Shown here: positions 1-41,503 of the stretch, piece by piece
Layout: each line of letters starts with the position of its first letter
Position numbering within the stretch: position 1 is the first letter of the stretch
DNA from: a virus
Direction: 5' to 3' (one strand)
Length of the DNA stretch: 50,225 nucleotides
IMG/VR virus record: IMGVR_UViG_3300032249_000712
Span: 1 to 50,225 of that record
Notes under the pieces: model-generated
What the model saw: the letters and a program-made list of their open reading frames with translations, nothing else
The model's database searches: none
What the model was told of the DNA's origin: nothing
Program-made: the position numbers and the translations under genes

Positions 1-29
1 CACTAAGAGGAAAGGCATTGGTGAAATAA
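1..29 (+). CDS. C-terminal tail of an upstream gene (partial)
   Basis: An open frame enters from the left edge and ends in TAA at 27-29, giving a tail of about eight residues (LRGKALVK). That TAA shares a base with the ATG at 29, the TAATG coupling used by most neighbouring genes. The fragment is too short to identify, and only the stop/start overlap supports it. Confidence 0.3.
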
Positions 30-178: not shown

Positions 179-387
179 TGACTAGAAAAGACTACATACA
201 AACCGCTAATATCTTAAAAAGTTTTATTGATGAAATTCCGCAAACTACTTATGAGGATTTAATAGATAGTTTTGCTGATTGGTTTAAATCAGATAATGAA
301 AACTTTGATTTTGCAAGATTTGAAAAGGCTTGCGGAATTGATGAAATTGGTTTAATTCCTGTTGGCTCTGAAATGTTTAAAGTATAA
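178..387 (+). CDS. Conserved small phage protein, 69 aa
   Basis: The protein opens with MTRKDY and contains the pattern FDFARFEKACG, which I recall from short hypothetical proteins common in tailed phages. Its function is unknown. It is acidic and predicted helical, with no membrane segment. Its start overlaps the previous stop by one base, so it is probably translationally coupled. The first copy of the repeated 3'-UTR hairpin starts 8 nt after its stop. Confidence 0.7.
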   Translation: MTRKDYIQTANILKSFIDEIPQTTYEDLIDSFADWFKSDNENFDFARFEKACGIDEIGLIPVGSEMFKV

Positions 388-394
388 ATAAAAA

Positions 395-419
395 TCCTGG
401 ACAAGATTTAAAACTGTCC
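395..419 (+). ncRNA. Repeated 3'-UTR hairpin, copy 1
   Basis: TCCTG leads into a stem GGAC (399-402) / GTCC (416-419) closed by a 13-nt loop reading AAGATTTAAAACT. It is one of five copies (others at 2806, 3621, 4274 and 5452). The loop is conserved while the stem bases change in compensating pairs. It lies 8 nt after a stop codon. Its function is unknown. Confidence 0.6.
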
Positions 420-446
420 GAACATTTGTTCTAAAAGCCCGAGGGG

Positions 447-467
447 TTTTCCACAGGTTTATCCACA
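447..467 (+). promoter_or_regulatory. Tandem DnaA-box-like sites
   Basis: TTTTCCACA (447-455) and TTATCCACA (459-467) both match the bacterial DnaA box consensus TTWTNCACA and are three bases apart in the same orientation. They lie in a 188-bp intergenic gap. They could bind host DnaA for replication initiation or for transcriptional control. Two boxes alone do not prove an origin. Confidence 0.45.
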
Positions 468-521
468 GGGCGATTATGTGATTAAAAACACACTCCAGAT
501 TCCCCAGATTACTGCGTCTAA

Positions 522-551
522 TTGGATTTTGTCGGTCGTATCTGATAGGAT
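522..551 (+). promoter_or_regulatory. Candidate promoter for the 576-1590 gene run
   Basis: TTGGAT (522-527), an 18-bp spacer, then TAGGAT (546-551). An AACGAAAGGAA ribosome-binding region precedes the ATG at 576. It is weaker than the other left-arm promoters. Confidence 0.4.
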
Positions 552-575
552 AAAGATATAACGAAAGGAAAACTA

Positions 576-761
576 ATGGGAAAGTTCAAAGATACTTTAA
601 TGGAAATACTTGCTCATGATGAGTGCTATGGCGCAGGTTGGCAATTTGTAGGAAATGCGATAGACTATGATGTATGGGCGTGTGAGTGTAATCCTTACAA
701 TATCCCTGCTGATGAAATACAGGAATACCACCAATTATTCAAAACTAAGGAGAACGCATAA
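576..761 (+). CDS. Small acidic phage protein, 61 aa
   Basis: I do not recognise this gene. A good ribosome-binding site (GAAAGGAA) precedes the ATG, and the stop overlaps the next ATG (TAATG). The middle carries YDVWACECNP, similar to the YDV and CDC region of the product at 29-178, so the two may be diverged copies of one family. It is soluble with no membrane segment. It opens a tightly coupled run of five genes to 1590. Confidence 0.6.
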   Translation: MGKFKDTLMEILAHDECYGAGWQFVGNAIDYDVWACECNPYNIPADEIQEYHQLFKTKENA

Positions 762-970
762 TGGAATATACTTATTCACTTACTACTTCATATGATGGAG
801 AGTTAGTAAATACCCTGCGAGTTAGCGATATGCTAGAGGCAGTTAGTGCTTGGGATAAATGTGTAGACTATGGCTTTGCTAAAGAATACGCAACCTACAA
901 TTTGTCTGACCCAACAGGTAAGATGTATACTAAAACCTTCTACACTAATGGAGAGGTCGTAATTAAATAA
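761..970 (+). CDS. Hypothetical phage protein, 69 aa
   Basis: I do not recognise this gene. It is coupled to both neighbours by one-base TAATG overlaps, which is the main evidence that it is real. It is rich in Tyr and Thr with alternating hydrophobic residues, suggesting a small beta-rich soluble protein. It has no cysteine motif beyond a single Cys. Confidence 0.6.
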   Translation: MEYTYSLTTSYDGELVNTLRVSDMLEAVSAWDKCVDYGFAKEYATYNLSDPTGKMYTKTFYTNGEVVIK

Positions 971-1266
971 TGGGAAGCATAACAGCCATTGGTCTAGCGG
1001 ATACAACGCTAGACTTAGAAACACAATTAAAGTATCACTTACAAGGTAATCACTATCCACCAATACCAACAGTAATGGTGCAGCCTTGCATTGAAGCAAT
1101 TGACGCTTACTATGATGAAGACTATTCTCGTAGAATAGAATTGCCAGTTGTTGATGGCTTTCAAATTAGTTGGAAAGGTAATACTTGGACTACCGCCAGC
1201 GCATTGGTATCACACGCACACCTAGAATGGTTCATTGAGCCTAGTGATGAGGATATAGATGAGTAA
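970..1266 (+). CDS. Hypothetical phage protein, 98 aa
   Basis: I do not recognise this gene. The start overlaps the preceding stop, and the last codons overlap the ATG of the 31-aa gene at 1259 (ATGAGTAA). The C-terminal half is Trp- and acid-rich, ending DEDIDE. The opposite-strand frame at 833-1099 is a shadow of this gene and the one before it. Confidence 0.6.
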   Translation: MGSITAIGLADTTLDLETQLKYHLQGNHYPPIPTVMVQPCIEAIDAYYDEDYSRRIELPVVDGFQISWKGNTWTTASALVSHAHLEWFIEPSDEDIDE

Positions 1267-1354
1267 AGACTTGCAAGATAAATTAGACGCAGTTGCAAAA
1301 ATATTAGAGCCTATTCTATGGGAAACGCTAGCAGAAATTGAGGAACAAGAATGA
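1259..1354 (+). CDS. 31-aa helical peptide
   Basis: This short frame overlaps the previous stop by eight bases and the next start by four (ATGA), so it sits exactly in phase with the local coupling pattern. The peptide (MSKDLQDKLDAVAKILEPIL and onwards) is amphipathic and probably one helix ending in acidic residues. Its function is unknown. Confidence 0.5.
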   Translation: MSKDLQDKLDAVAKILEPILWETLAEIEEQE

Positions 1355-1590
1355 TTGATTTAGAAAATGATGATACCATTCAAATTGTGGACTATGTAAA
1401 AGTTGATATGCTAACTTCAGGGCAATTAGAGATTGATGATAATATCTTAATTGCTGATGAGGTTGTGTCTATTGTAGATATAGTTTCATTACCTGATGGA
1501 TACACTTTAGAAATTGTAAATGATTTTGGTGAAAGAGAAATAATTCAAGTTGGTGAGTTTGATCAATTTGATTTAATGATGTTGCAGTAA
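1351..1590 (+). CDS. Acidic beta-rich phage protein, 79 aa
   Basis: I do not recognise this gene. It overlaps the previous gene by ATGA. The strongly acidic sequence has short repeated I-V-D strands (ILIADEVVSIVDIVSLPDGY) and resembles a small beta-barrel. It is the last gene of this unit; a CCCGAGGG block and a fresh promoter follow. Confidence 0.6.
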   Translation: MIDLENDDTIQIVDYVKVDMLTSGQLEIDDNILIADEVVSIVDIVSLPDGYTLEIVNDFGEREIIQVGEFDQFDLMMLQ

Positions 1591-1636
1591 GGGGCGCCCG
1601 AGGGCGATTTGTCCGATTTGTACTAATTAAGGGGAG

Positions 1637-1665
1637 TTGATATTTTTCCCATATTCTGCTAGAAT
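1637..1665 (+). promoter_or_regulatory. Promoter for a leaderless transcript (Gp88-like gene)
   Basis: TTGATA (1637-1642), a 17-bp spacer containing TTTTTCCCAT, then TAGAAT (1660-1665). Only six bases separate the -10 box from the ATG at 1672, so the mRNA should start at or next to the AUG. Upstream lies GTCCGATTT and CTAATTAAG, also found before the promoter at 4372. Confidence 0.75.
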
Positions 1666-1671
1666 TTTCAT

Positions 1672-2400
1672 ATGACTACGCCACAGTTAAAGAGATCTCA
1701 TGACAGAAAGGTTGCTAATCTTGTTACGAAAAACGGAAAGCAAGCCGCAATTGCAAACACGTTCGGATTACCCGCTGGCAAATCTTATTCATGCCCTGGT
1801 GCCACTAGTGTTTGTGAGAGCGTTTGCTACGCAGGAAAACTTGAAAAGTTATTCAAAGGAGTAAGGGCTAACCTCCTACACAATTGGGAATTATTAAAAG
1901 ACGCAGATGAATCTAATATGATTGATCTATTGCAGAATATGATTAATGATTTTAAAAAAGATTGTGAAAAGAAAAATGCACCATTGTTATTTCGTATTCA
2001 TTGGGACGGTGACTTCTTTAATGATACCTACACCATGGCATGGAAGACGATCATCCTTAACAATACAGATATAAAGTTTTGGGTATACACTAGAGTACAC
2101 TCTGCAGCGGTAATGCTTAAGGGTATACCTAATCTATCTTTATACTATTCCACAGATAGTGAGAATAAGGAGATAGGTGTTAGTTTAAAGAAAGATCATG
2201 GTGTGCGCCTTGCATACCTTGCAAAGAATTTTGCCATAGGTCAAGCAGATATGAAAGAGTTATTCAATAAACCTGGTGCTAAGTGTCCTGAAAACTTAAA
2301 GTCTATTCCGCTTATCTCAACTAATGGCTCCGCTTGCGTATCATGCGGATTGTGTGTATACTCTAAGAGCGATATAGTTTTCTCATCGTCTAAAAAATAG
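1672..2400 (+). CDS. Gp88-like phage protein, Cys-rich, 242 aa
   Basis: This resembles the 'gene product 88' family of mycobacteriophages, whose function is not established. Near residues 40-52 it has a CPGATSVCESVCYAGK cysteine cluster, and near the C-terminus a CVSCGLC cluster. Between them is a WDGDFF segment. Paired Cys clusters suggest bound metal or an iron-sulfur centre, but I see no canonical radical-SAM CxxxCxxC. The start is the ATG at 1672, directly after a strong promoter with no room for a leader. It appears to be expressed alone or with the 20-aa frame that follows. Confidence 0.65.
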   Translation: MTTPQLKRSHDRKVANLVTKNGKQAAIANTFGLPAGKSYSCPGATSVCESVCYAGKLEKLFKGVRANLLHNWELLKDADESNMIDLLQNMINDFKKDCEKKNAPLLFRIHWDGDFFNDTYTMAWKTIILNNTDIKFWVYTRVHSAAVMLKGIPNLSLYYSTDSENKEIGVSLKKDHGVRLAYLAKNFAIGQADMKELFNKPGAKCPENLKSIPLISTNGSACVSCGLCVYSKSDIVFSSSKK

Positions 2401-2408
2401 GGGTAACT

Positions 2409-2471
2409 ATGGAACTAGTAATTCTAACTATCTTATTTATCATGGTCTTATTCGCAGGTATGGGACACTAA
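2409..2471 (+). CDS. 20-aa hydrophobic micropeptide
   Basis: This short frame begins eight bases after the preceding stop, with GGGG just upstream. It encodes an almost purely hydrophobic single helix, MELVILTILFIMVLFAGMGH. If translated it would be a one-pass membrane peptide. The evidence is only the composition and position. Confidence 0.35.
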   Translation: MELVILTILFIMVLFAGMGH

Positions 2472-2501
2472 TTGTCCGTTTTGTCCGTTTCGGTATGGTG
2501 G

Positions 2502-2517
2502 TGTGAGATACATCACA
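2502..2517 (+). promoter_or_regulatory. CRP/GlxR-like operator
   Basis: TGTGAGATACATCACA is a perfect TGTGA-N6-TCACA palindrome with TA at the centre. Its centre lies about 83 bp before the predicted transcription start of the promoter at 2558. It is one of three such sites in the left arm. Confidence 0.6.
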
Positions 2518-2525
2518 GATATCAT

Positions 2526-2542
2526 ATCTCAAAATATGAGAT
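2526..2542 (+). promoter_or_regulatory. Palindromic operator candidate
   Basis: ATCTCA (2526-2531), five bases, then TGAGAT (2537-2542): a perfect 6-bp inverted repeat just upstream of the promoter at 2558. It may bind a dimeric regulator. No T-run follows, so it is not a terminator. Confidence 0.35.
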
Positions 2543-2557
2543 TATTAAAAATATAAC

Positions 2558-2586
2558 TTGTATTTTTATCCAAAAAATGTTAGACT
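2558..2586 (+). promoter_or_regulatory. Promoter for the small SH3-like gene 1
   Basis: TTGTAT (2558-2563), 17-bp spacer ending AAAAAATGT, then TAGACT (2581-2586). The spacer end, the -10 box and the following AGTAAGCAAA leader are nearly identical to those of the promoter at 3329. Confidence 0.65.
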
Positions 2587-2620
2587 TAAACAGTAAGCAA
2601 AAACCAACCAAAGGAGAAAC

Positions 2621-2785
2621 ATGTCCGTAGCAAACGCAATATACAAAGTAGGCGACACCTACACAAGCCAAAAGTCAAAGGCAACAGGCGTTATCAAAGA
2701 AATCGTGCCACAGGCAAATGGTAATGTTCGTGTTAAGTTAGATGTTAATGGCTCTACTCGCTGGACAACTTGGACAGCAAAGTAA
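2621..2785 (+). CDS. 54-aa SH3/KOW-like small protein, copy 1
   Basis: The frame is preceded by a strong AAAGGAGAAAC ribosome-binding site. The product reads YKVGDTYTSQKSKATGVIKE and then alternates polar and hydrophobic residues, like a five-stranded SH3 or KOW barrel. It is a paralogue of the 56-aa product at 3397: both have Y-(K/Q)-(V/I)-GD, T-S-K, TG(V/R)I, then RV-L near the end. Promoter, leader and downstream hairpin are shared too. An RNA- or nucleic-acid-binding role is possible but only inferred from the fold type. Confidence 0.6.
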   Translation: MSVANAIYKVGDTYTSQKSKATGVIKEIVPQANGNVRVKLDVNGSTRWTTWTAK

Positions 2786-2805
2786 TCTTAGCCTAGTGGC
2801 TAAAG

Positions 2806-2830
2806 TCCTGAGCATGACCAAAAACTGCTC
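2806..2830 (+). ncRNA. Repeated 3'-UTR hairpin, copy 2
   Basis: TCCTG, stem GAGC (2810-2813) / GCTC (2827-2830), 13-nt loop ATGACCAAAAACT. It starts 21 nt after the stop of the 54-aa gene. Confidence 0.6.
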
Positions 2831-2879
2831 AACTTAATACCCCCATCAACTACACCAAACGAAAAGGAAACCAAACCAA

Positions 2880-3302
2880 ATGGCAAGAGGTAAAGCAATA
2901 CAGGTAAAAATCCCTACGGCTAAAATCATTACTGCCTTAGAAGCAAAGTTAGCAAAGACAAAGGCTGACTACTCAAAGCAAGATGAATACGAAGCCAAAT
3001 ACAAACTGGCAAAAGAAGCATGGCAAAAAGCACTTGGCGCATGGGCTATTGAGAACTTCTCAAAGGCGCAAGACCTACGCACCAACTATCGTCAATGGAA
3101 CAAAACGCTAAATGTTGATTTTGATATTATCACAGATGGCAACGACTTTCCACAAGAGCCTGAGAAGGACTACGAGGAAATCCACCGCCATACTTACAAT
3201 GAGATGGTAGAGGAAATTGAGAACGCTATCCGTATTCTCAAAATGACAGACGAGGAAACAGTTAATACCTCAACCTACAACGCTATTGCTCGTTATCTTT
3301 AA
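2880..3302 (+). CDS. Hypothetical helical phage protein, 140 aa
   Basis: I do not recognise this gene. The ATG at 2880 follows AAAAGGAAACC. The first 60 residues are Ala/Lys-rich and helical, probably a coiled coil (ITALEAKLAKTKADYSKQ), followed by an acidic helical C-terminus. There is no membrane segment or cysteine motif. It lacks its own obvious promoter and may be read from 2558 through hairpin copy 2. Confidence 0.65.
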   Translation: MARGKAIQVKIPTAKIITALEAKLAKTKADYSKQDEYEAKYKLAKEAWQKALGAWAIENFSKAQDLRTNYRQWNKTLNVDFDIITDGNDFPQEPEKDYEEIHRHTYNEMVEEIENAIRILKMTDEETVNTSTYNAIARYL

Positions 3303-3328
3303 TTAGATAATTAGGTGGGGAAGGGTAT

Positions 3329-3357
3329 TTGACTTCCCCCCTAAAAAATGTTAGACT
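3329..3357 (+). promoter_or_regulatory. Promoter for the small SH3-like gene 2
   Basis: TTGACT (3329-3334), 17-bp spacer ending AAAAAATGT, then TAGACT (3352-3357). Its 3' half and the leader that follows duplicate those at 2571-2600. Confidence 0.7.
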
Positions 3358-3396
3358 AAGTAAGTAAGCAAACCACCACAACAGAAAAGGAAAATC

Positions 3397-3567
3397 ATGA
3401 CACTAGGCGGATACACATATCAAATTGGTGATTTATTCACCACTAGTAAAACAGGCGTAACTGGTAGAATTGTAAAGTTCTCACCAATTAACTCTAAACT
3501 TACTAGAGTATCTCTAAAGTTAGCAAATGGCGCACAACGCCTTGCTATGGTAAGCACAACTAAATAA
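3397..3567 (+). CDS. 56-aa SH3/KOW-like small protein, copy 2
   Basis: A ribosome-binding site (GAAAAGGAAAATC) precedes the ATG at 3397. The product (YQIGDLFTTSKTGVTGRIV and onwards) aligns along its length with the 54-aa product at 2621. It is a small, basic, beta-rich protein without cysteines. The whole unit (promoter, leader, gene, hairpin) seems to have been duplicated and then diverged. Its function is not known. Confidence 0.6.
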   Translation: MTLGGYTYQIGDLFTTSKTGVTGRIVKFSPINSKLTRVSLKLANGAQRLAMVSTTK

Positions 3568-3620
3568 TTTATCTCTGATAAGCACTTGGCTTAATTGCTA
3601 GGTTATTCCTGAGATAAGAC

Positions 3621-3646
3621 TCCTGAGCATGAGTTCTAAACTGCTC
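3621..3646 (+). ncRNA. Repeated 3'-UTR hairpin, copy 3
   Basis: TCCTG, stem GAGC (3625-3628) / GCTC (3643-3646), loop of 14 nt (ATGAGTTCTAAACT), one base longer than the other copies. It starts 54 nt after the stop of the 56-aa gene. Confidence 0.6.
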
Positions 3647-3657
3647 ATATTTTAATT

Positions 3658-3673
3658 CCCCGCAAAAGCGGGG
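3658..3673 (+). terminator. GC hairpin, possible terminator
   Basis: CCCCGC-AAAA-GCGGGG forms a compact 6-bp hairpin just after hairpin copy 3. No T-run follows, so it is not a canonical intrinsic terminator. It may stop transcription weakly or protect the 3' end. Confidence 0.35.
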
Positions 3674-3682
3674 CCGAGGCAA

Positions 3683-3698
3683 CGTGATCTAAATCACA
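3683..3698 (+). promoter_or_regulatory. CRP/GlxR-like operator
   Basis: CGTGATCTAAATCACA matches the CRP core with one mismatch in the outer arm and the same central TA. Its centre is about 75 bp before the predicted start of the promoter at 3731. Confidence 0.55.
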
Positions 3699-3730
3699 TC
3701 CCATTATGTGAGACTAATTAAGAACTGGAC

Positions 3731-3759
3731 TTGCATTTCCACAATCATCCTGATATTAT
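3731..3759 (+). promoter_or_regulatory. Promoter for the 154-aa gene
   Basis: TTGCAT (3731-3736), 17-bp spacer, TATTAT (3754-3759). A leader with AAAAGGAACC precedes the ATG at 3784. Confidence 0.6.
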
Positions 3760-3783
3760 TGTATTAACAGAAAAGGAACCCCT

Positions 3784-4248
3784 ATGAGCGACGTAATGAC
3801 ACAAGAACAACTATCAGTGCCCTATAACCCTAACCTATTGGTTACATATAAATATGTTCCAGAGACATATGCAGCACCAGAAAGCCCTACATTCATGACT
3901 GATAAGGTTACTCAGATTGAGTGGGACCTTCACAATGGACGCAAGAATGCTGCAATTGCTGCAGAACGACGTGCAGATATTGAAATGCTTGAAGAGCAAA
4001 TTCCTGAATGGTATGACCCAAACTATTCTAAAGAAGATGTTTTAAAAGCGCTAGCACAACACTTTGGTATTGATCCCATAAAACAAATGAGTGTATATGG
4101 AACTATTACATTCAGTGGAACTATTAATATTCCAATCTCAGAGATTGAAGACTTTGACCTAAGCAATGTAACCATTGACGCAGAAGTAAGTTCATATGAC
4201 TATGACGGAGACTTTACTGTGGATGATGTTTCAATTGAAGAGAATTAA
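3784..4248 (+). CDS. Hypothetical acidic phage protein, 154 aa
   Basis: I do not recognise this gene. The N-terminal third is Pro/Tyr-rich, the middle is helical (about residues 45-100), and the C-terminus is strongly acidic and beta-like (SSYDYDGDFTVDDVSIEEN). There is no membrane segment and no Cys. The middle and end resemble small hypothetical proteins I recall from actinobacteriophage early regions. It has its own promoter, a CRP-like site upstream and hairpin copy 4 after the stop, so it is a single-gene unit. Confidence 0.65.
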   Translation: MSDVMTQEQLSVPYNPNLLVTYKYVPETYAAPESPTFMTDKVTQIEWDLHNGRKNAAIAAERRADIEMLEEQIPEWYDPNYSKEDVLKALAQHFGIDPIKQMSVYGTITFSGTINIPISEIEDFDLSNVTIDAEVSSYDYDGDFTVDDVSIEEN

Positions 4249-4273
4249 GGTTTGATAGGGGGCTATCAAAAGA

Positions 4274-4298
4274 TCCTGGCCACGATCTAAAACTGGCC
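4274..4298 (+). ncRNA. Repeated 3'-UTR hairpin, copy 4
   Basis: TCCTG, stem GGCC (4278-4281) / GGCC (4295-4298), 13-nt loop ACGATCTAAAACT. The loop is nearly identical to copy 5 while the stem bases differ in compensating pairs. It is followed by CCCGAGGG at 4306-4313. Confidence 0.65.
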
Positions 4299-4371
4299 AT
4301 AAAAACCCGAGGGGCCCGAAATGTCCGATTTATCCTAATTAAGAAGATTAAACCATTTTCCCTAATCCTAG

Positions 4372-4400
4372 TTGACATTGTCTGCCATGACTGCTAAACT
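4372..4400 (+). promoter_or_regulatory. Strong promoter for the DUF932 gene
   Basis: TTGACA (4372-4377), 17-bp spacer, TAAACT (4395-4400). It is preceded by GTCCGATTT (4323-4331) and CTAATTAAG (4335-4343), the block also seen at 1611-1631. Confidence 0.75.
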
Positions 4401-4426
4401 TAGTTAAAACAACCGAAAGGATAAAA

Positions 4427-5443
4427 ATGGCTCATGAGTTAGAAACTCAAAACGGTGTGGTAAGTTTTGCATCATTCCGTGAACCTGCATGGCACAATCT
4501 TGGTACTGTATTTGATACTGAGAAAAATACTAACGAAATGTTAGTTGCTGCTAACTTAAATAATTGGAATGTTAGATTAGAGGATTTAGAAATCCCATCT
4601 AGTTTAGTATCTGATAAGCAATACCAATATGTAGTTCGCACTAACCCTACTGATAAATCTCAAACTGATGTTTTGGGAATTGTTGGTGAGCGTTATGTTC
4701 CATTACAAAATGAAGATTTGTTTTCATTTGGTGATAACATTCTTGATGGTGGGGGTCGCTGGGAAACTGCTGGCTCCATTCGTGGTGGTCGTGTAGTATT
4801 TGGCTCTCTTGCATTAGAGCGTGAAACTGTATTAGACCCTAACGGCGTGGCAGATGTTGTTAAAACTTATCTGCTTATTAACACATCACATGATGGCTCA
4901 ATCGCTATTCAAGCAAGCATAACGCCTGTTCGTGTTGTGTGCGCTAACACTCTTAATGTGGCACTTAACCGCACTAAGAAAAAAGATGGCGTAAAGCAAT
5001 CTTTCAAAATCCGTCATACACAAACTGCTGAGGGCAAAATAACTGTTGCTCGTCAGGCACTAGGCATGGCTAACGCTTACATGACTGAGTTTGATAAGAT
5101 GGCTCATGCCATGATAGCAAAAGAAATCTCTGCTAAGGATTTCAACGATATTATTCTTGCTGCTTACCCTAAGCCTGAATTAGATACTAAGGGTGCTGTA
5201 AAGAAATGGGAAAACAAAGTAGATATGATTAACGATATCTATACTGGCGAATATAACGGAATGATTAGTGGCAATGCTTGGGGTGCGTTCAATGCACTAA
5301 CTGAGCGTTTAGACTGGTATCGTTCTGCTCGTGGTGGTAATAGCGAAAGCATGTTTGCTGCTGCTTCTGGATTTGACCCTGCAATTAACGCAGAGAAAAA
5401 TCGTTTGCTAACTATTGTGCAAAATACTTTGCAACTGGCTTAG
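4427..5443 (+). CDS. DUF932 / phage-plasmid-like protein (TIGR03299 type)
   Basis: The length of 338 aa and the opening MAHELETQNGVVSFASFREP, followed by AWHNLGTVF, are characteristic of the DUF932 family, widespread on phages and plasmids and often called phage/plasmid-like protein TIGR03299. Its biochemical role is unknown; links to DNA metabolism or anti-defence have been discussed. The rest is a mixed alpha/beta soluble protein with a VRVVCANTLN motif near residue 165, typical of the family. The ATG at 4427 follows CCGAAAGGA. It has its own strong promoter and ends with hairpin copy 5, then tRNA-Asp. Confidence 0.85.
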   Translation: MAHELETQNGVVSFASFREPAWHNLGTVFDTEKNTNEMLVAANLNNWNVRLEDLEIPSSLVSDKQYQYVVRTNPTDKSQTDVLGIVGERYVPLQNEDLFSFGDNILDGGGRWETAGSIRGGRVVFGSLALERETVLDPNGVADVVKTYLLINTSHDGSIAIQASITPVRVVCANTLNVALNRTKKKDGVKQSFKIRHTQTAEGKITVARQALGMANAYMTEFDKMAHAMIAKEISAKDFNDIILAAYPKPELDTKGAVKKWENKVDMINDIYTGEYNGMISGNAWGAFNALTERLDWYRSARGGNSESMFAAASGFDPAINAEKNRLLTIVQNTLQLA

Positions 5444-5451
5444 TAAAAAAA

Positions 5452-5476
5452 TCCTGAGCACGATTTAAAACTGCTC
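5452..5476 (+). ncRNA. Repeated 3'-UTR hairpin, copy 5
   Basis: TCCTG, stem GAGC (5456-5459) / GCTC (5473-5476), 13-nt loop ACGATTTAAAACT. It begins 9 nt after the DUF932 stop and ends 4 nt before the tRNA-Asp gene, so it may mark or guide processing between mRNA and tRNA. Confidence 0.65.
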
Positions 5477-5480
5477 CGCT

Positions 5481-5554
5481 GGTCCCATAGATCAATTGGT
5501 TAGATCGTTACCCTGTCACGGTAAAGGCTACGGGTTCAAGTCCCGTTGGGATCG
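5481..5554 (+). tRNA. tRNA-Asp (GTC)
   Basis: A complete cloverleaf. The acceptor GGTCCCA/TGGGATC has one G:U pair. The D-stem is GATC/GATC. The anticodon stem TTACC/GGTAA holds loop CTGTCAC with anticodon GTC. The T-arm is ACGGG-TTCAAGT-CCCGT. Discriminator G is followed by CA rather than an encoded CCA. It is probably co-transcribed with the DUF932 gene. Confidence 0.95.
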
Positions 5555-5633
5555 CAGGTGCCCGAGTGTAACATTTTTGTTATAATTGTATTACGTTGAG
5601 ATGATATTTTTCCCATTTTCTCATTACGGTATG

Positions 5634-5662
5634 TTGACATTTTTCCCATTTTGTAGGATAAT
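5634..5662 (+). promoter_or_regulatory. Promoter for a leaderless five-unit run
   Basis: TTGACA (5634-5639), 17-bp spacer TTTTTCCCATTTTGTAG, GATAAT (5657-5662). Six bases then separate the -10 from the ATG at 5669. A similar TATTTTTCCCATTTTCT stretch about 30 bp upstream looks like a decayed second copy of the same promoter. Confidence 0.75.
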
Positions 5663-5668
5663 TAATTC

Positions 5669-5830
5669 ATGACCACAATTAACAAACCACATACCATAAA
5701 CGAACTAATACAAACCATCTATGACGAGAACTACTCACATCTAGATTTCATGGACAACATGGCTAGTGGTGATTGTGATTGTCGTATCCATATGACTCTT
5801 AATACTATCTTAGAATACTGGGGTGAGTAA
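5669..5830 (+). CDS. Hypothetical phage protein, 53 aa, leaderless
   Basis: I do not recognise this gene. The ATG lies where the transcript should begin, with no ribosome-binding site. The stop overlaps the next ATG (TAATG). The protein is mostly helical with a central CDC motif. It opens a coupled set of four tiny genes to 6238. Confidence 0.55.
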   Translation: MTTINKPHTINELIQTIYDENYSHLDFMDNMASGDCDCRIHMTLNTILEYWGE

Positions 5831-5928
5831 TGAGTACTTGTTGCAATGCATATGTGACTTTCTTTGACTCTACCCTGGTTTGTAAGAAATGTTATAAGGA
5901 ACAACCACTAGAAACTTTGGGGGACTAA
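5830..5928 (+). CDS. 32-aa zinc-ribbon-like protein
   Basis: It overlaps both neighbours through TAATG. Cysteines at the start (STCC) and in the middle (CKKC) could chelate one zinc ion. It is too short for more than a single zinc knuckle. Its function is unknown. Confidence 0.5.
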   Translation: MSTCCNAYVTFFDSTLVCKKCYKEQPLETLGD

Positions 5929-6104
5929 TGTTAGGTTATACATATAAGGATATACAGGCCTTTGGTAATAGTTTAACTTGGGCTATTGATACCGCCAAAT
6001 CTCAGGGGGATGAACAAAACTATAAACAATTACTAATAGTATGGGACTTCTTTGAGGGACTACTAGCAGAAGGGTACATAGATGAGAACACATACTATGG
6101 ATAA
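5928..6104 (+). CDS. Hypothetical phage protein, 58 aa
   Basis: I do not recognise this gene. It is coupled on both sides by TAATG. The Tyr/Trp-rich helical sequence (LLIVWDFFEGLLAEGY) is probably a small two-helix protein. Confidence 0.55.
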   Translation: MLGYTYKDIQAFGNSLTWAIDTAKSQGDEQNYKQLLIVWDFFEGLLAEGYIDENTYYG

Positions 6105-6238
6105 TGACTGACCTGGTTGCCGTTCATTACTGGTCAGATATGGCCAACCTCACTCACGTATCACAAGTAGAACTATTTGACTTCTGTGCCTGTGAGGAGC
6201 AAGAGTACTTCCCATACGATGACTGTCCTGTGATGTAG
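6104..6238 (+). CDS. Hypothetical phage protein, 44 aa
   Basis: The ATG overlaps the previous stop. The acidic peptide has Cys residues in DFCACEEQE and DDCPVM and may bind metal. Its last codons overlap the CRP-like palindrome at 6229. It is supported mainly by the overlap pattern. Confidence 0.45.
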   Translation: MTDLVAVHYWSDMANLTHVSQVELFDFCACEEQEYFPYDDCPVM

Positions 6239-6244
6239 ATCACA
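6229..6244 (+). promoter_or_regulatory. CRP/GlxR-like operator
   Basis: TGTGATGTAGATCACA is a perfect TGTGA-N6-TCACA with central TA. It sits directly upstream of the promoter at 6255, its centre about 53 bp before the predicted start. Confidence 0.6.
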
Positions 6245-6254
6245 TCTCTATACC

Positions 6255-6283
6255 TTGCAAAAGTCCACACATTTTGTTAGAAT
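6255..6283 (+). promoter_or_regulatory. Promoter for the 6315-8031 gene run
   Basis: TTGCAA (6255-6260), 17-bp spacer, TAGAAT (6278-6283), followed by a 31-nt leader with AGAGAAAGAGA before the ATG at 6315. Confidence 0.65.
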
Positions 6284-6314
6284 TGTATTAAGAACCTAGA
6301 GAAAGAGACCCACA

Positions 6315-6851
6315 ATGCATACGCTCCACTGGATAGCAACAAAAGCAAAAGATAGACAAGAAGCCTTTGACATTGTCACTGTTAGTCTTATGCCAAACGA
6401 AGACGGAAACCGTATGGCTGACTGGTCAGACTGGCATGTCGTAGGTGGTGGCCGCTGGTCAGACAGTGCCTATCAAAATTCTTCTGACATGATTATTTCA
6501 TATGCTGAGAAGCCTGATGAGTTCAAGAAAACAATAGAAGACATCAAGCGCTATCGTATTAACTACATGAACGATAAACTTATCAAACTTGATAATGCCT
6601 TTGATAACCTTAAGTCAGATGTCGTTGATTATATTAGCAATGATTGTAAACTAGATGATAAAAGGCAGTTTGATTTTTCTCGCTGGGAAATCACGGAAGC
6701 CATAAATATGATTAATGGTAAGTGGACCTGTGACAGTGCATTCTTTGACCATAATGAATTCACATCTAGTTTTCAATATCTTGAAGAGCGCCTTGACAAA
6801 CCTGAAGAGGCTGCGCTACACTATCTAGTACCTGTAGACTTCCACTTCTAA
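6315..6851 (+). CDS. Hypothetical phage protein, 178 aa
   Basis: I do not recognise this gene. The protein begins with a hydrophobic strand (MHTLHWIATKAKDRQEAFD), then has a Gly/Trp-rich turn (WHVVGGGRWSDS) and a long helical second half. It is soluble with two scattered Cys. It is first in an operon of five small genes that overlap or abut. The CRP-like site and promoter upstream suggest control by a host regulator. Confidence 0.65.
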   Translation: MHTLHWIATKAKDRQEAFDIVTVSLMPNEDGNRMADWSDWHVVGGGRWSDSAYQNSSDMIISYAEKPDEFKKTIEDIKRYRINYMNDKLIKLDNAFDNLKSDVVDYISNDCKLDDKRQFDFSRWEITEAINMINGKWTCDSAFFDHNEFTSSFQYLEERLDKPEEAALHYLVPVDFHF

Positions 6852-6859
6852 GGAGACCA

Positions 6860-7330
6860 ATGAACGACTTAATAGAACTTACAGAGGAAGAGTGGTTTGA
6901 TACTTTCAAGCCAATCCCAAACCATATAGATGACAATGCCTCATTTCAAACTGAAGAAGGCGTAGGTTATATGTTTGAGACATATGATGACGAGTTAAGG
7001 TTTGTCCAATCTCAGGAGCCTAATAGGATATGGACTTATTGTGATGGGGACGACAGAGGTACCTATATATTTCAGGGTATGCGTATAGTTAATAGGATTG
7101 GGTACTTCGTGACTGCCGTGCCCTTTGATGGTAGCAAGGACTATCAGATACAGATTAGCAGCGAGGGTGTTTATGAATGTCCTAACTGTTATGAGATATG
7201 GGAAGATGAAGCAGCAGCCTTACATTATGACAAATTTGAGGATTTGGAAAAATGTGCTGGTTGCGCTACAATAGAAGAAATCAAAGAGATAGAAGAAATG
7301 GAGACCCACGATGCCAACTTACGAGGTTAA
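6860..7330 (+). CDS. Zinc-ribbon phage protein, 156 aa
   Basis: The C-terminal third carries CPNC (about residues 113-116) and CAGC (about 134-137), a two-knuckle zinc ribbon. The first 100 residues form an acidic beta-rich domain I do not recognise. The start follows TAAGGAGACC. It overlaps the next gene by 20 bases. A role in binding nucleic acid or a host protein is possible but only inferred. Confidence 0.65.
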   Translation: MNDLIELTEEEWFDTFKPIPNHIDDNASFQTEEGVGYMFETYDDELRFVQSQEPNRIWTYCDGDDRGTYIFQGMRIVNRIGYFVTAVPFDGSKDYQIQISSEGVYECPNCYEIWEDEAAALHYDKFEDLEKCAGCATIEEIKEIEEMETHDANLRG

Positions 7331-7502
7331 GGTTACAGGACAAATCACCAAGTCTTTCCGTATTATAGATGCAGAGAGCGATGTTGATGCACGAGACATT
7401 GCAGAAAATGAATTCCTAGATGAATATGCTGTAACAATTTCAGACGGTTCAGGAATTGCATGGGACCTAGTTGAGTCAACACAATCTGAGGAGACACTAT
7501 AA
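7311..7502 (+). CDS. DpnD/PcfM-like small protein, 63 aa
   Basis: The pattern of a short beta strand (YEVKVTGQITKSFRI), then A-S-V-A-(R)-IAENEF, resembles the DpnD/PcfM-type domain found on plasmids and phages, whose function is not defined. The start at 7311 has GGAG upstream and the stop overlaps the next ATG. Confidence 0.55.
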   Translation: MPTYEVKVTGQITKSFRIIDAESDVDARDIAENEFLDEYAVTISDGSGIAWDLVESTQSEETL

Positions 7503-7660
7503 TGGCAAGATGGGAAGTTGAAGTAATATTTGAGCCCACAGGCGATTACATGAACTTTGAGTATGAGACTGACAATGAAGATGAAGACAGCATCTTTAAT
7601 GAGATATCTAACCAACTATCAATCGTACCAAATCTAATAGAGAAAAACGAGGAAGAGTAA
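7502..7660 (+). CDS. Acidic hypothetical protein, 52 aa
   Basis: It is coupled by TAATG to both neighbours. The start (ARWEVEVIFEP) echoes the beta-strand opening of the preceding gene, so they may be related half-domains. It is very acidic (DNEDEDS) and its function is unknown. Confidence 0.55.
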   Translation: MARWEVEVIFEPTGDYMNFEYETDNEDEDSIFNEISNQLSIVPNLIEKNEEE

Positions 7661-8031
7661 TGGGAGCACGTTGCACATTTGTTTTTAAACAGTCAGAGGA
7701 TCTAGCAGTAGCGCTGTACAGCCATTGGGGCGAAGACAGTATGTATCAAGATCTTGCTCAGGCCCTGCAGCATGCAGCGGTACGAAGCGGGGATAAAGAA
7801 TACTACGTCCGTATGGCCATTAGCCATCTACTAAAGGATTCTATTCTGGATGAGACAGGGTTTGGTATCTATGCATGTAATCCTAATGACCTAGGTTTTA
7901 TGGACCATCCAATATTAATTGACCTTACAGATAATACTATCAGTCATGATGGTGTAGACCATAAGAGCATTGGTAGTTTTATTGAATACAATTTGCCCAG
8001 CAGTGTCCTTTCCACTGTGGGGGCTTCATAA
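7660..8031 (+). CDS. Hypothetical phage protein, 123 aa
   Basis: This resembles a hypothetical family I recall from actinobacteriophages, opening with MGARCTFVFKQ followed by a Y-S-HWG motif and a helical middle. No function is known. It is soluble with no repeat or membrane segment. It ends the 6315-8031 operon and is followed by a hairpin. Confidence 0.65.
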   Translation: MGARCTFVFKQSEDLAVALYSHWGEDSMYQDLAQALQHAAVRSGDKEYYVRMAISHLLKDSILDETGFGIYACNPNDLGFMDHPILIDLTDNTISHDGVDHKSIGSFIEYNLPSSVLSTVGAS

Positions 8032-8067
8032 GCGGAGGTAGGGGTCACCTCTCGCTATAGACAGGGG

Positions 8068-8098
8068 GAAGCGCATTCTTGTGGTGGGTTTGCGCTTC
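8068..8098 (+). terminator. Hairpin between operons, possible terminator
   Basis: GAAGCGCA (8068-8075) pairs with TGCGCTTC (8091-8098) around a 15-nt loop. The right arm overlaps the -35 of the next promoter. A short T-rich stretch follows only after eight bases, so termination is uncertain. Confidence 0.4.
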
Positions 8099-8118
8099 TC
8101 CATACTTTTTGATAGAAT
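8090..8118 (+). promoter_or_regulatory. Promoter for a leaderless two-gene unit
   Basis: TTGCGC (8090-8095), 17-bp spacer, TAGAAT (8113-8118), then six bases to the ATG at 8125. The -35 lies inside the right arm of the preceding hairpin. Confidence 0.6.
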
Positions 8119-8124
8119 TGGGAT

Positions 8125-8358
8125 ATGGGGTTTATGCGTAGGTCTATTAGGCTTGGAATAAGTAAAGAGGAAAAGGTAGCAGGTAGAATAACGACCTTGC
8201 TATCTGATTTTACTCTTGACTTAGAAGCCATAGGATTTTATTTAGCAAAGGCTTCGCCCCACATTATTTATACTAGGGCTAATGAGGTTTTGGAAGCCAT
8301 GCAGTATAATAAAGAAGTTGACCAATTAGATAGAGGAGTTTACAATGGCAGGCGGTAA
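8125..8358 (+). CDS. Hypothetical phage protein, 77 aa, leaderless
   Basis: I do not recognise this gene. The ATG is placed at the expected transcript start. The protein is basic and helical at the N-terminus (MGFMRRSIRLGISKEEK), then amphipathic. It overlaps the next gene by 14 bases. Confidence 0.55.
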   Translation: MGFMRRSIRLGISKEEKVAGRITTLLSDFTLDLEAIGFYLAKASPHIIYTRANEVLEAMQYNKEVDQLDRGVYNGRR

Positions 8359-8611
8359 TACTTTTGAGAACAAGATAACTATCCTTGCTGAGTTGTGGAT
8401 GAACTATCGTGATGATGAGGACTTACAAGATTTTGTAGAGTATAACGATTTAGGTTTGCCACTTGCTTATTTTTTAGTGAATGAAATTGTTCTGCCAACA
8501 AGTCAGTCAGAGTTATATATAAACGAAACCTATGATTTATTTATTGCCTCTCTACAAGTTGCTGATAAAGAGTGGGAAAGTCTTGACGAATTACTGGGAG
8601 ATCAGGCGTAG
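8345..8611 (+). CDS. Hypothetical acidic phage protein, 88 aa
   Basis: This is an all-helical acidic protein (FENKITILAELWMNYRDDED) that I have only seen as hypothetical in actinobacteriophages. Its start is preceded by TAGAGGAG. It is the last gene before the repeat-rich non-coding region. Confidence 0.6.
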   Translation: MAGGNTFENKITILAELWMNYRDDEDLQDFVEYNDLGLPLAYFLVNEIVLPTSQSELYINETYDLFIASLQVADKEWESLDELLGDQA

Positions 8612-8829
8612 CCCTGCCCCCTCGGGTAAAATCATATCAAACCACCCAAAACGGACATAGATTTTACGAAAAGACATTAAGAACCAATTTTAAAAAATCC
8701 CAGATCGTGGGAGATTACGACATCTGTAGAATTTTCCAGATTCATGTCAAACCTTCAAACCTTCTAATCTCAAACTTTCAAACCTCATATCTGCCAAACC
8801 TTTATATCCAGAAGATATGGTTTGTATAC

Positions 8830-8899
8830 TACTAGGAGTATTGGTATATCTTTTTATCCCCGCCGATTTTGCGTCCCCGCGGGGCGCTGAGTCCTAGTA
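8830..8899. repeat. Inverted repeat around a GC-rich core
   Basis: TACTAGGA (8830-8837) and TCCTAGTA (8892-8899) are perfect 8-bp arms. Between them lies a GC island with the palindrome CCCCGCGGGG (about 8875-8884), striking in AT-rich surroundings. It could extrude as a cruciform or act as a protein-binding site. Confidence 0.45.
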
Positions 8900-9040
8900 T
8901 TAATAGACATTACGAAGCGGGAATTTAAATTGCGAATTATTTAAAACTTTTACCATAGTTATCAAACCTTTCTAGATTTTTTCCTGGTGTTTTAAAAGAT
9001 TTTGCTACATTTTTGGGGCATTTTTTTAGGCTATAAAGGT

Positions 9041-9069
9041 TTGACAAACCATGGTTTTGGGGGTATAAT
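9041..9069 (+). promoter_or_regulatory. Perfect-consensus promoter with overlapping palindromes
   Basis: TTGACA (9041-9046), 17-bp spacer, TATAAT (9064-9069) is the exact sigma-70 consensus. GGTTTG-A-CAAACC (9038-9050) and AAACCATGGTTT (about 9046-9057) are palindromes overlapping the -35 and spacer. This strongly suggests repression at this promoter by whatever binds the heptamers. Confidence 0.7.
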
Positions 9070-9075
9070 GCATGC

Positions 9076-9195
9076 CAGATATGTGGATAGAAAGGTTTGG
9101 GAGGTTTGGGATAGAGAGGTTTGGCCGCCAGAGGATTACGACGCCATCTATAAAATCGCCCAATCACCCACTATCCTCCACTTTCCTCCCTTTTA
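9076..9195 (+). ncRNA. Candidate structured small RNA downstream of the perfect promoter
   Basis: The predicted transcript begins near 9076 and is purine-rich at first and pyrimidine-rich at the end. GGGAGG (9099-9104) can pair with CCTCCC (9185-9190), nested outside GGATAG (9109-9114) with CTATCC (9171-9176); TTTT follows the outer arm. A 64-aa frame crosses the region but starts before the promoter. Short frames from ATGs at 9072 or 9081 exist but look like low-complexity translations of the repeats. Confidence 0.35.
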
Positions 9196-9455
9196 ACTAT
9201 AATTAAAAAATATCAGTAAGATTTATTTCTCTTACCAAACCACTCTAGATGGCACTTAAAAGCCTTCCAAGCCTTAAATCAGCGGGTATCAAACCATCGC
9301 CCTGGATCCATATTGTGCCTATTCTCATTATCAAACCAGATACTTGCACATAGGTTCAAACCTTTATATCAAGCACATTCTGTGTCTGGCTATGGGGATA
9401 TTAGGCTATAGGGTTTGAAAGGTTTGTTATTACACTGGGGGGTATTAGGTATTTC

Positions 9456-9484
9456 TTTACATTCCCGCCAAAATCTGATAGACT
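9456..9484 (+). promoter_or_regulatory. Promoter for the 68-aa basic protein
   Basis: TTTACA (9456-9461), 17-bp spacer, TAGACT (9479-9484), then TTTATAAAAGGAGAAAT before the ATG at 9502. Confidence 0.65.
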
Positions 9485-9501
9485 TTTATAAAAGGAGAAA
9501 T

Positions 9502-9708
9502 ATGTCTGAGCCTAATCTATTTGTAACAACCTTACATAAAGGTTTAGGGATGCACAGAAAAAGTCCCAGAATCAAGGGTAAACGTAAGCCAATGAAGTCT
9601 AAACCTGTAATTAGGGTAGGGGGTAGAAAGGTTTCTGCTGCTCCTAGAAATAAAACAAAGTATAGGTTTCCTGTTGAAGTCTCATATGTAGGGGATACTA
9701 ACCGATAG
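9502..9708 (+). CDS. Small basic protein, 68 aa
   Basis: I do not recognise this gene. The start at 9502 is chosen because a strong AAAGGAGAAAT site and a promoter precede it; a longer frame from 9415 would start inside the heptamer repeats. The product is very rich in Lys and Arg (HRKSPRIKGKRKPMKSKP) with no membrane segment, suggesting a nucleic-acid-binding protein. Two heptamer-like sites fall inside the gene. Confidence 0.6.
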   Translation: MSEPNLFVTTLHKGLGMHRKSPRIKGKRKPMKSKPVIRVGGRKVSAAPRNKTKYRFPVEVSYVGDTNR

Positions 9709-9753
9709 TGCCCGTTTAGGGCATGGAAAGGTTTGATAGTTCCATTTTGCGCC

Positions 9754-9782
9754 TTGACTTTACCGCCGAACTTTGATATGAT
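9754..9782 (+). promoter_or_regulatory. Promoter for a leaderless run of small genes
   Basis: TTGACT (9754-9759), 17-bp spacer, TATGAT (9777-9782), then six bases to the ATG at 9789. The flanks carry GGTTTGA (9730) and TCAAACC (9801). Confidence 0.7.
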
Positions 9783-9788
9783 TGAGTA

Positions 9789-9965
9789 ATGAAAAATCTA
9801 TCAAACCTCATTTCCGCATCAGGATCTTTTAACTTAGATGAGGCTCTTCGTGCTGTCGCCGAACTCCATATCCCAGAAGGCACATTATTTCATAGATGCC
9901 AAGAAGATAAAAAACCTTGGCCTTGTCAAACCATTCAGGCTATTGAAAAAGAATTAACAAAATGA
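9789..9965 (+). CDS. Hypothetical phage protein, 58 aa, leaderless
   Basis: I do not recognise this gene. The ATG coincides with the predicted transcript start and the gene overlaps the next by four bases (ATGA). The soluble, helical protein has HRCQEDKKPWPCQT near the end, where the His and two Cys could bind metal. The DNA encoding SNLIS includes a TCAAACC site just after the start. Confidence 0.55.
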   Translation: MKNLSNLISASGSFNLDEALRAVAELHIPEGTLFHRCQEDKKPWPCQTIQAIEKELTK

Positions 9966-10120
9966 TAACTGATAATCTAACTTGGGCAGAAGAAGAAAAC
10001 AACCTTTGGAAGGGTTGGACATACAGCCTTGAAAAAAATCGCTATTATTTTAATGATATAGGTAGTGAATCTCTTGCAGCCTTTTGGGCAGATGAGTTTT
10101 TGAATCAGGCCTACTCATAG
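9962..10120 (+). CDS. Hypothetical Trp-rich protein, 52 aa
   Basis: It overlaps the previous gene by ATGA. Acidic and aromatic-rich (NNLWKGWTYSLEKNRYYF). Its function is unknown. Confidence 0.5.
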   Translation: MITDNLTWAEEENNLWKGWTYSLEKNRYYFNDIGSESLAAFWADEFLNQAYS

Positions 10121-10121
10121 A

Positions 10122-10280
10122 ATGGGAAAACTTATGATTAAAAGTAAAGAGTGGAGAGTTAGTAATAGGGTTTGGGTTGGTGTTGGTTTTGCTCCCCGCA
10201 GAATTGCGTTAGGGTTTAGCGTAGATAGATTTTGCATTAATATTGATTTTCTTTGGTTTTGGGTAACACTTGAATACTAA
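10122..10280 (+). CDS. Hypothetical beta-rich protein, 52 aa
   Basis: It follows the previous stop by one base. Alternating hydrophobic residues (WRVSNRVWVGVGFAPRRIAL) and a C-terminal aromatic strand suggest a small beta sheet or membrane-associated hairpin. A second in-frame ATG at codon 5 is possible. Confidence 0.45.
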   Translation: MGKLMIKSKEWRVSNRVWVGVGFAPRRIALGFSVDRFCINIDFLWFWVTLEY

Positions 10281-39718: not shown

Positions 39719-41503
39719 TTATATTATATTTAATCTGTCAAGAAAATCTCTAACATCGCTAGGCATTTCCTTGTTGTCTAATTCTACCATAGCCCTCTGC
39801 TTCTCTGCAAGTCGCGTAGAGGTAGACCAAGTATGAATCTCAATCTCATGGTTAGAATCTTTAGGCGTATGTGATATTGCTCCAAAAACAGCGCCACATA
39901 CAGCATCTGCTAGGTCCTTAGATTTTTTACGTGGATGGTCAACTCTAGTATTTTTCATAATTTTGAGTTCTGACATTTCTTCCAGTAACAAAGGAATTCT
40001 TGGTATTGCAACTCTCTCTTCATATATCATCATTGCTAAGTCTTCATAGTGTTTCTTGGCAACAGAAACGGTATCTGTTTTTATGCCTACCGCTTTTAGT
40101 TCCTGTTGAATATCAAATGATTGCCAGCGGTCAAATGAAACAACTCCAATATTAAATCCTTGTCTGCGTAAATTAATAATCCACTGTTTTACTTCTGATA
40201 AATTAACTGGACCTTCTGCTTTTGGTTCCCACCAAGCAACTGCATCAACAATAACCATTGGCGCTACTTGTTGATAATCTTTAATAACTTGAATATTTAC
40301 CCACTTGTCTACGTGAGCAATTGCTACAGCACATTTGTCATGTTTCTGTGCAAGGTCAGCATGAATATAGTATATTTTTTCTGGATCAGGTTTAAATGAT
40401 TCATCAAACCTTCTAAAGTTATCAACTGGGTTTCTTAATGTCATACATTTTTCTAACTTATCTTTTTGTTTAAAAAATGCATCTGATGCAAATGTTGGTG
40501 TACATGCAAAGCGCATCATAGCATCGCCAAGGTCTGTGTAAAATGCTAATTTAAAATCATCTATTTTCCTAGTAGGGTTTACATCCCATGTTGTTTTCTT
40601 AAGTGCTAAAACTTTTGGAACTTTATAAGAAAGGATTGTGTCTTCTTCCCATGAAATTTCAAATTGATTATTTGGATCGTCATGTGGCAGATCTTCATTC
40701 ATAATAAATAAGTGTTTCTTTTCAATAGTTTCTTTTTCTGCAATAACATCTTCATATCTTTTAGAAATAAAGTCACCTTGATAGCGGGGGAATGAAAGTA
40801 ATACTACCTTACCTAAATCTGGAAAACGAGAGTCTACGGATCCACGAAATGCTTTATAAATATTTTCTGCAGTCTTTCCTTGTTCATTTCCAGTTCCAAC
40901 TTCAGATGCAAAACCAGAAATTTCATCAAGGACTGCAAGTAATAAGTTTAAACCTTCATGAGACTCTCTCTCTGAGTGTCCAGAATAAACAGTAATTGAT
41001 TTATCAAACTCAATACTGTCAGCCTTTGCATTATATTTTCCTGCAAACCATGGTGATTTTTCTATCTTAGTTTTAAATCCCTTAAAAAATACGTTCTTTG
41101 CTTGTTGTGCGTTAATGGCTACGTTAATGATATCAATTGCATCCCCGCTTGGTTTTCCATAATATCTAGCAGGATCTTTAAGGCATAATAGTTTATAAAC
41201 TATGTATGCACAGGCTACTGTTGATACAAAGTCTTTTCCAGATCCTTTTCCAAGTTGCAAAATAATTTCATTTTTAGTATATTTGTCATAATACTGGGCG
41301 CCAACAACAGATCCAAATATTTCTTGTAATTCTTCTTTACGATAAATCTGACTCATTGCTTCTACAATTTCATATTGAATTAAAGATAATTCTGGCTGGC
41401 CAAGATAGTCCGCAGACTCAACAAATGTTTTTGCGTCTACTGGAATTTCATCAAATTGATTTTCTTTTAAAACTTCTAAAAAATCATTGAACATCTTGGA
41501 CAA
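39719..41503 (-). CDS. Terminase large subunit, 594 aa
   Basis: The packaging ATPase-nuclease. Walker A is LGKGSGKD (residues 84-91), Walker B LLAVLDEISGF (about 188-198). The nuclease Asp residues sit in IHADLAQKHDK (about 375), GVVSFDRWQS (about 455) and KDLADAVCGAVFGA near the end. It cuts concatemers and drives DNA into the prohead. The start lies inside the small subunit gene. No portal or capsid gene follows it, unlike in most phages. Confidence 0.93.
   Translation of the reverse strand: MSKMFNDFLEVLKENQFDEIPVDAKTFVESADYLGQPELSLIQYEIVEAMSQIYRKEELQEIFGSVVGAQYYDKYTKNEIILQLGKGSGKDFVSTVACAYIVYKLLCLKDPARYYGKPSGDAIDIINVAINAQQAKNVFFKGFKTKIEKSPWFAGKYNAKADSIEFDKSITVYSGHSERESHEGLNLLLAVLDEISGFASEVGTGNEQGKTAENIYKAFRGSVDSRFPDLGKVVLLSFPRYQGDFISKRYEDVIAEKETIEKKHLFIMNEDLPHDDPNNQFEISWEEDTILSYKVPKVLALKKTTWDVNPTRKIDDFKLAFYTDLGDAMMRFACTPTFASDAFFKQKDKLEKCMTLRNPVDNFRRFDESFKPDPEKIYYIHADLAQKHDKCAVAIAHVDKWVNIQVIKDYQQVAPMVIVDAVAWWEPKAEGPVNLSEVKQWIINLRRQGFNIGVVSFDRWQSFDIQQELKAVGIKTDTVSVAKKHYEDLAMMIYEERVAIPRIPLLLEEMSELKIMKNTRVDHPRKKSKDLADAVCGAVFGAISHTPKDSNHEIEIHTWSTSTRLAEKQRAMVELDNKEMPSDVRDFLDRLNII

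Follow-up and report, generated by a model that had tools for sequence, protein, structure and literature searches.

The dense array of CAAACC words in the window, a 50,225-nucleotide stretch of viral DNA (IMG/VR record IMGVR_UViG_3300032249_000712), is best read, with modest confidence on our part, as the cis-acting component of a control region that closes a long direct terminal repeat. Its owner would be a Stanwilliamsviridae-like phage with a lytic life style that infects freshwater Actinomycetota, and in it the array would gate a promoter directed into the unique region. The CAAACC copies are ordered and conserved around one strong promoter, and they are probably binding sites for a protein. 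On this reading, an array that lacked an explanation becomes a control element that can be tested, sited at a predicted genome terminus. It is present in ~100 contigs of uncultured phages and has a counterpart in cultured Streptomyces phages, which are open to experiment. No description of such a control region was found in open papers, which cover part of the literature only.

A conserved array of CAAACC sites

On both strands of the window TCAAACC occurred 30 times, compared to 7.5 expected in shuffled sequences (0 of 100 shuffles reached 30), and 13 of these copies were packed into 1.3 kb between 8637 and 9932. Shuffle and density counts thus confirmed the dense array put forward in the original prediction, and the distribution along the whole window was uneven, with the array region standing out: CAAACC was its most enriched 6-mer (Poisson p ~3e-15), and 21 of the 80 copies in the window fell within the 1.33 kb of 8612-9940, at 15.8 per kb compared to 1.2 per kb outside (~13-fold). 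TCAAACC held up as an enriched heptamer but not as a strict unit, as the core conserved across relatives was CAAACC[TA]T (consensus [TC]CAAACC[TA]T). Similarly, the region had been called gene-free, which was correct for 8612-9501 but not beyond, where probable small genes occupied 9502-9708 and 9789-9965. The first of these, a 68-aa ORF, had homologues 53-56% identical in relatives L047 and L073, and the second, a 58-aa ORF, contained the outlying CAAACC copies 9802 and 9927 (Table 1). Neither the 68-aa ORF nor the 88-aa ORF on the other side of the array had a match in cultured phages, array DNA yielded chance matches only in a blastn search against cultured phages, and a known RNA element was rejected since an Rfam search returned no match at E up to 1.

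Table 1. Positions of the array, its surroundings and two marker genes in the window
Feature	Position	Strand	Details
DUF932 gene	4427..5443	+	In Streptomyces BE1 phages, homologue located within the 11-kb terminal repeat
Gene-free control region	8612..9501		Between 88-aa ORF (8345-8611) and 68-aa ORF (9502-9708)
Left CAAACC cluster	8638..8824	+	Copies 8638, 8748, 8756, 8779, 8795 plus; 8819 minus
Four TTACGA copies	8664..9141	+	8664, 8715, 8910, 9136; counterpart of TTTACGA copies on the repeat side in Boydwoodruffvirinae
Inverted CAAACC pair GGTTTGACAAACC	9038..9050		Two sites as inverted repeat around the -35 box
Sigma-70 promoter TTGACA-17-TATAAT	9041..9069	+	Perfect, 12/12
Minus-strand CAAACC trio	9094..9123	-	Copies 9094, 9103, 9118; just past the expected transcription start
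Conserved block GCCC/AATCACCCACTATCCTCC	9158..9179	+	Predicted terminal-repeat end and packaging cut (slash), between 9161 and 9162
Conserved block ATCAGTAAGATTTA	9212..9225	+	50-52 bp past the predicted cut
Unique-side CAAACC copies	9236..9426		9236, 9290, 9332, 9357 plus; 9412, 9421 minus
Outlying CAAACC copies	9730..9932		9730 minus; 9802, 9927 plus; less clearly part of the element
Large terminase	39719..41503	-	53-54% identical over 100% length to BE-cluster terminases

We retrieved 80 relatives from IMG/VR, and the region past the conserved 88-aa ORF was comparable in 59 sequences, of which 39 were non-redundant (window included). The array was kept at the same place: in 38 of the 39, CAAACC occurred eight times or more within 1.3 kb (median 14), counts that are not independent given the phylogenetic correlation among relatives, and in three long relatives (records of 88-114 kb) the CAAACC density maximum of the entire record lay there. 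The sole exception, L047 (with its duplicate L048), had an array of CCATAT/GATATGG in that position, with spacings of 26, 17, 8, 9, 9, 8 and 16, the same ~8-bp phasing as the CAAACC arrays described below. As the word was replaced while place and phasing were retained, we infer that a sequence-specific protein coevolves with its sites. The replacement word (GATATGG/TATATGG, L047 4918-5725) is similar to the repeats of TATATGG that NootNoot carries where its terminal repeat meets unique DNA. Four further records (L063, L065-L067) had neither a detectable 88-aa ORF nor a CAAACC array here, possibly reflecting a rearranged junction.

Site order and phasing around one promoter

Promoters had been proposed at 9041, 9456 and 9754; the first was clearly the best, and the other two scored only 9/12 and 10/12. 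The -35 box of the 9041-9069 promoter sits inside GGTTTGACAAACC. Inverted CAAACC pairs had a single preferred distance, yielding GGTTTGNCAAACC, and TTGACAAACC promoters, in which CAAACC copies overlap the -35 box, were present in 30/39 sequences compared to 0.15 expected by shuffling. Spacings between same-strand CAAACC copies peaked at 8, 15-16, 24-25, 31 and 40 bp, with a best period of 8.0-8.2; in 18 divergent sequences the strength of the period at 8.2 bp was 0.389, above the maximum of 0.370 in 500 random placements. Orientation was equally ordered in the window and its relatives. Upstream of the promoter, nearly all copies at 350-650 bp and at 50-150 bp were on the plus strand, those 0-150 bp downstream were mostly on the minus strand (except the copy over the -35 box), and those farther away were on the plus strand again, giving a pattern of plus, promoter, minus, plus along the region. 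Sites phased at 8 bp, both flanking the promoter and within it, fit cooperative binding by a small protein, and the suggestion of a set of repressor sites in the original prediction agrees with the -35 overlap, the phasing and the change of orientation at the promoter.

We propose that a small DNA-binding protein, possibly of the phage and possibly of its host, would bind the sites cooperatively and head to tail, with the inverted pair bound over the -35 box. Once bound, it would repress or time a promoter whose transcripts start in the repeat, which would hold the pre-early genes that enter first, and run past the junction to the early genes of the unique region; the upstream cluster, ~400 bp from the promoter, would permit looping. 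Judged from site order, repression or timing of the 9041 promoter is the most likely role of the array, which would then probably control the switch from the first-entering genes to the next ones.

A known parallel for such binding is omega (RHH ParB) of pSM19035, whose dimers bind cooperatively to short non-palindromic direct and inverted repeats over promoters (PMC9499535). The CAAACC sites are likewise short, non-palindromic, direct as well as inverted, and overlap promoters, but omega sites are contiguous 7-bp heptads whereas the array has an 8-bp phase with gaps, and neither RHH_1 nor AAA_31 (ParA) was found. For RHH_1, no match above the cut-off was obtained in 8 records, a search that a divergent RHH protein might escape; the regulators Lsr2, MerR_1 and HTH_3 also gave no match above the cut-off, and a family search of the window and its relatives (10 records) returned no AAA_31 match. 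A plasmid-like centromere was rejected on the lack of a ParA-type (AAA_31) match.

The original prediction had likened the layout to the stoperators of cluster A phages, which are 13-mers spread over the genome with an orientation tied to transcription, and which serve a temperate-phage repressor (PMC9283540). Many short asymmetric sites, some of them over promoters, are common to both systems, and the replacement of the word between lineages resembles drift of immunity specificity. Nevertheless, temperate-phage immunity based on stoperator-type sites is very improbable here, and the likeness of layout was not supported: the array has none of the stoperator traits named above, its sites form a single dense cluster per genome, and they point both ways, unlike the uniform orientation along transcription in L5. 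Searches for Phage_integrase and Resolvase (tyrosine or serine integrases) found no recognisable match in 10 records (the window and nine relatives, most >100 kb), in keeping with a lytic phage.

Conserved blocks and DnaA boxes past the promoter

In an alignment of 30 sequences, the minus-strand copies were followed in order by ATTACGA, a block like GCTCCATTACCCACTATCCTCCAC, ATCAGTAAGATTTA and two DnaA boxes. A pair of perfect DnaA boxes at a distance of 11-12 bp followed ATCAGTAAGATTTA in most divergent lineages; this pair was lost in the clade of the window, which has extra CAAACC copies instead, and the unique-side copies (Table 1) occupy the place of the DnaA boxes in relatives. DnaA boxes were ~10-fold enriched beside the array in relatives (48 in 31 kb compared to 102 in 682 kb), at least two lay near the array in 16/39 sequences, and the ATCAGTAAGATTTA-DnaA pattern was present in 104 IMG/VR stretches.

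An array with DnaA boxes could load a phage or host initiator and so serve as a replication origin, and the enrichment of DnaA boxes, together with the AT-rich, gene-free, promoter-proximal setting, is what such an origin would look like. We consider this quite unlikely for the array itself. The DnaA pair is lost in the very clade of the window, several other intergenic sites of the early region have such pairs too, GC skew did not change at the array, and the ~8-bp phasing is unlike that of typical iterons, which are long and helically phased. The earlier idea of an iteron origin found no support in the period or in the flat GC skew, nor in the protein families, as no Rep-like family was recognised among the best-ranked matches of 48 window proteins, in itself a weak test. 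For the relatives, the DnaA boxes near the array leave a role in replication possible. DnaA-box pairs 11-12 bp apart at other early sites were seen at 447-467 in the window, upstream of DUF932 in L054-L056, and in L040, L044, L060 and others, so host DnaA may have a wider role at early promoters.

A predicted genome end beside the array

Cultured Streptomyces BE (Stanwilliamsviridae) phages have direct terminal repeats of 10-12 kb; in BE1 phages these measure 10.7-11.5 kb with read-mapped ends (PMC5764925), and the termini of Coruscant were mapped by PhageTerm (PMC7650747). A terminus matrix was built from six cultured BE-phage cut sites only, and both strands of the window were searched with it. 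The best match, at 9158 (rank 1 of ~100,000 positions), fell inside the conserved block, which puts the predicted cut ~90 bp past the 9041-9069 promoter. Because the conserved block is G-poor, matrices with permuted columns were used as a control; these reached rank 1 in 1% of cases, and the joint rank over 16 sequences was equalled by 0/300. The best terminus match across the whole locus lay at the conserved block in 39/103 relatives (in a subset, 11/30 compared to 0.67/30 in controls), with ATCAGTAAG following 50-52 bp later in most loci, and blocks from different relatives were most alike to the mapped termini of different cultured phages, namely TunaTartare (18/22 identities), IchabodCrane (18/22) and Mildred21 (17/22). 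On these sequence matches, we infer that the array region lies where a long direct terminal repeat ends in the phage of the window. If the left repeat were the first to enter the cell, as in T5, no other element of the repeat would come after the promoter. At the right end of the genome, the cut would part the promoter from its target genes, with transcription running off the DNA.

The corresponding junction of BE phages (such as NootNoot, Mildred21, Yaboi and IchabodCrane) is built alike: a gene-free stretch of ~1.0-1.3 kb with lineage-specific short repeats, TTTACGA on the repeat side (in Boydwoodruffvirinae), the cut, [CTA]ATTACACAC and, mostly, DnaA boxes that follow the cut by 60-100 bp, as in most divergent relatives of the window though not in its own clade. 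It differs in the repeat word, which is CATATAC, CTATATAC or TATAAGACA instead of CAAACC, in the ~3 kb of small genes that separate DUF932 from the array in the family of the window, and in the Lsr2 gene of BE repeats, which was not found in that family. The DUF932 protein of the window was 55% identical to that of BE phages, and the NootNoot homologue lies within its ~11-kb direct terminal repeat. The opposite repeat end was strongly conserved among six BE phages (right-hand ends of NootNoot, Mildred21, Yaboi, IchabodCrane, Coruscant and TunaTartare), with ATACATGC...TAGTGCGCCCATA in most and TAGTGCGCCCATA in all six. A matrix scan for this end gave no convincing match in the phage family of the window, although the window may not reach so far, and no record held two copies of DUF932, which is expected, yet not proof, if assemblers collapse the repeat. 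As the opposite end was not found and two DUF932 copies never occurred in one record, the terminal repeat is still a prediction. Contig ends were discarded as evidence for the terminus: 4/103 pattern-matched contigs start 8-18 bp before the cut, but 0/36 contigs of the window clade end there. The terminus matrix can predict physical ends of uncultured genomes that assemblers collapse into circles.

BE terminases were the best matches of the window terminase in the phage collection, which supports a packaging mode shared with BE phages. The small terminase subunit might be the protein that binds CAAACC, positioning the terminal-repeat cut; copies lie on both sides of the predicted cut, their orientation changes there, and the cut region is conserved together with its DnaA/TTACGA context. 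We regard this role as unlikely, as the densest and most ordered copies follow the promoter, plus a cluster reaching as far as 650 bp from it, and not the cut, and the word differs among lineages with the same cut sequence (L047, BE phages).

Comparison with T5 and a possible two-stage takeover

In T5 (AY543070) the left terminal repeat occupies 1-10219 and the annotated injection stop signal 9140-10149, just before the repeat end, with DnaA-like boxes paired 12 bp apart (9437/9449, 9498/9510) and eight 15-base TGTGCAAATCCGACA-type repeats spanning the terminal-repeat end. Repeats, inverted repeats, palindromes and DnaA boxes are hallmarks of the T5 stop signal (PMC13250531). Relatives of the window likewise have a non-coding, repeat-rich region with DnaA boxes paired 11-12 bp apart, placed where a predicted terminal repeat of ~10 kb with putative pre-early genes would end. 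The likeness is one of layout; no sequence relation was found, and T5 repeats are 15-25 bp. T5.011 was compared as a candidate DUF932 homologue and rejected, as it is not DUF932.

By analogy with T5, the array, with the DnaA boxes of relatives, could form a nucleoprotein roadblock where the first-entering terminal repeat ends, so that no more DNA would enter before pre-early proteins lift the block. Its predicted place, and its parts in relatives, are those of the T5 repeat end. We think such an injection stop rather unlikely, because two-step entry was not described for BE phages in the literature examined, the T5 repeat words are unrelated to CAAACC, and the linkage of sites to the -35 box is better explained by control of transcription. 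A broader proposal, which we offer tentatively as possible though not likely, is that large actinobacterial long-repeat phages share a T5-like two-stage takeover, in which the phased array and DnaA boxes would delay early transcription or the entry of DNA until the cell has produced pre-early proteins, within an architecture of interchangeable words common to freshwater and Streptomyces phages. If the T5-like reading were true, staged genome entry or early transcription would extend to actinobacterial phages.

Probable host and further observations

The short contig that carries one close relative had been binned into a metagenome genome of Actinomycetota, which makes a freshwater actinobacterium the likely host. 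The window also encoded GP88, WhiB, a DNA polymerase and a UvsX-like recombinase. Early promoters (3329, 9456, 9754 and 12648 in the window; others in L034, L047, L060, L070 and L078) had a conserved spacer, roughly TTGACTTNCCCGCCAAAATTTGATATNNT, which suggests a second regulatory motif between the -35 and -10 boxes. Between the upstream cluster and the promoter lay a GC-rich CCCCGCCGATTTT... element (window 8858-8890, L047 ~5156-5185), whose copy in L047 reads like an intrinsic terminator. Elsewhere in the window, an in-frame 15-bp/60-bp repeat array (VDTEPVDT-type) was located at 36121-36305, within an 874-aa ORF (35355-37979).
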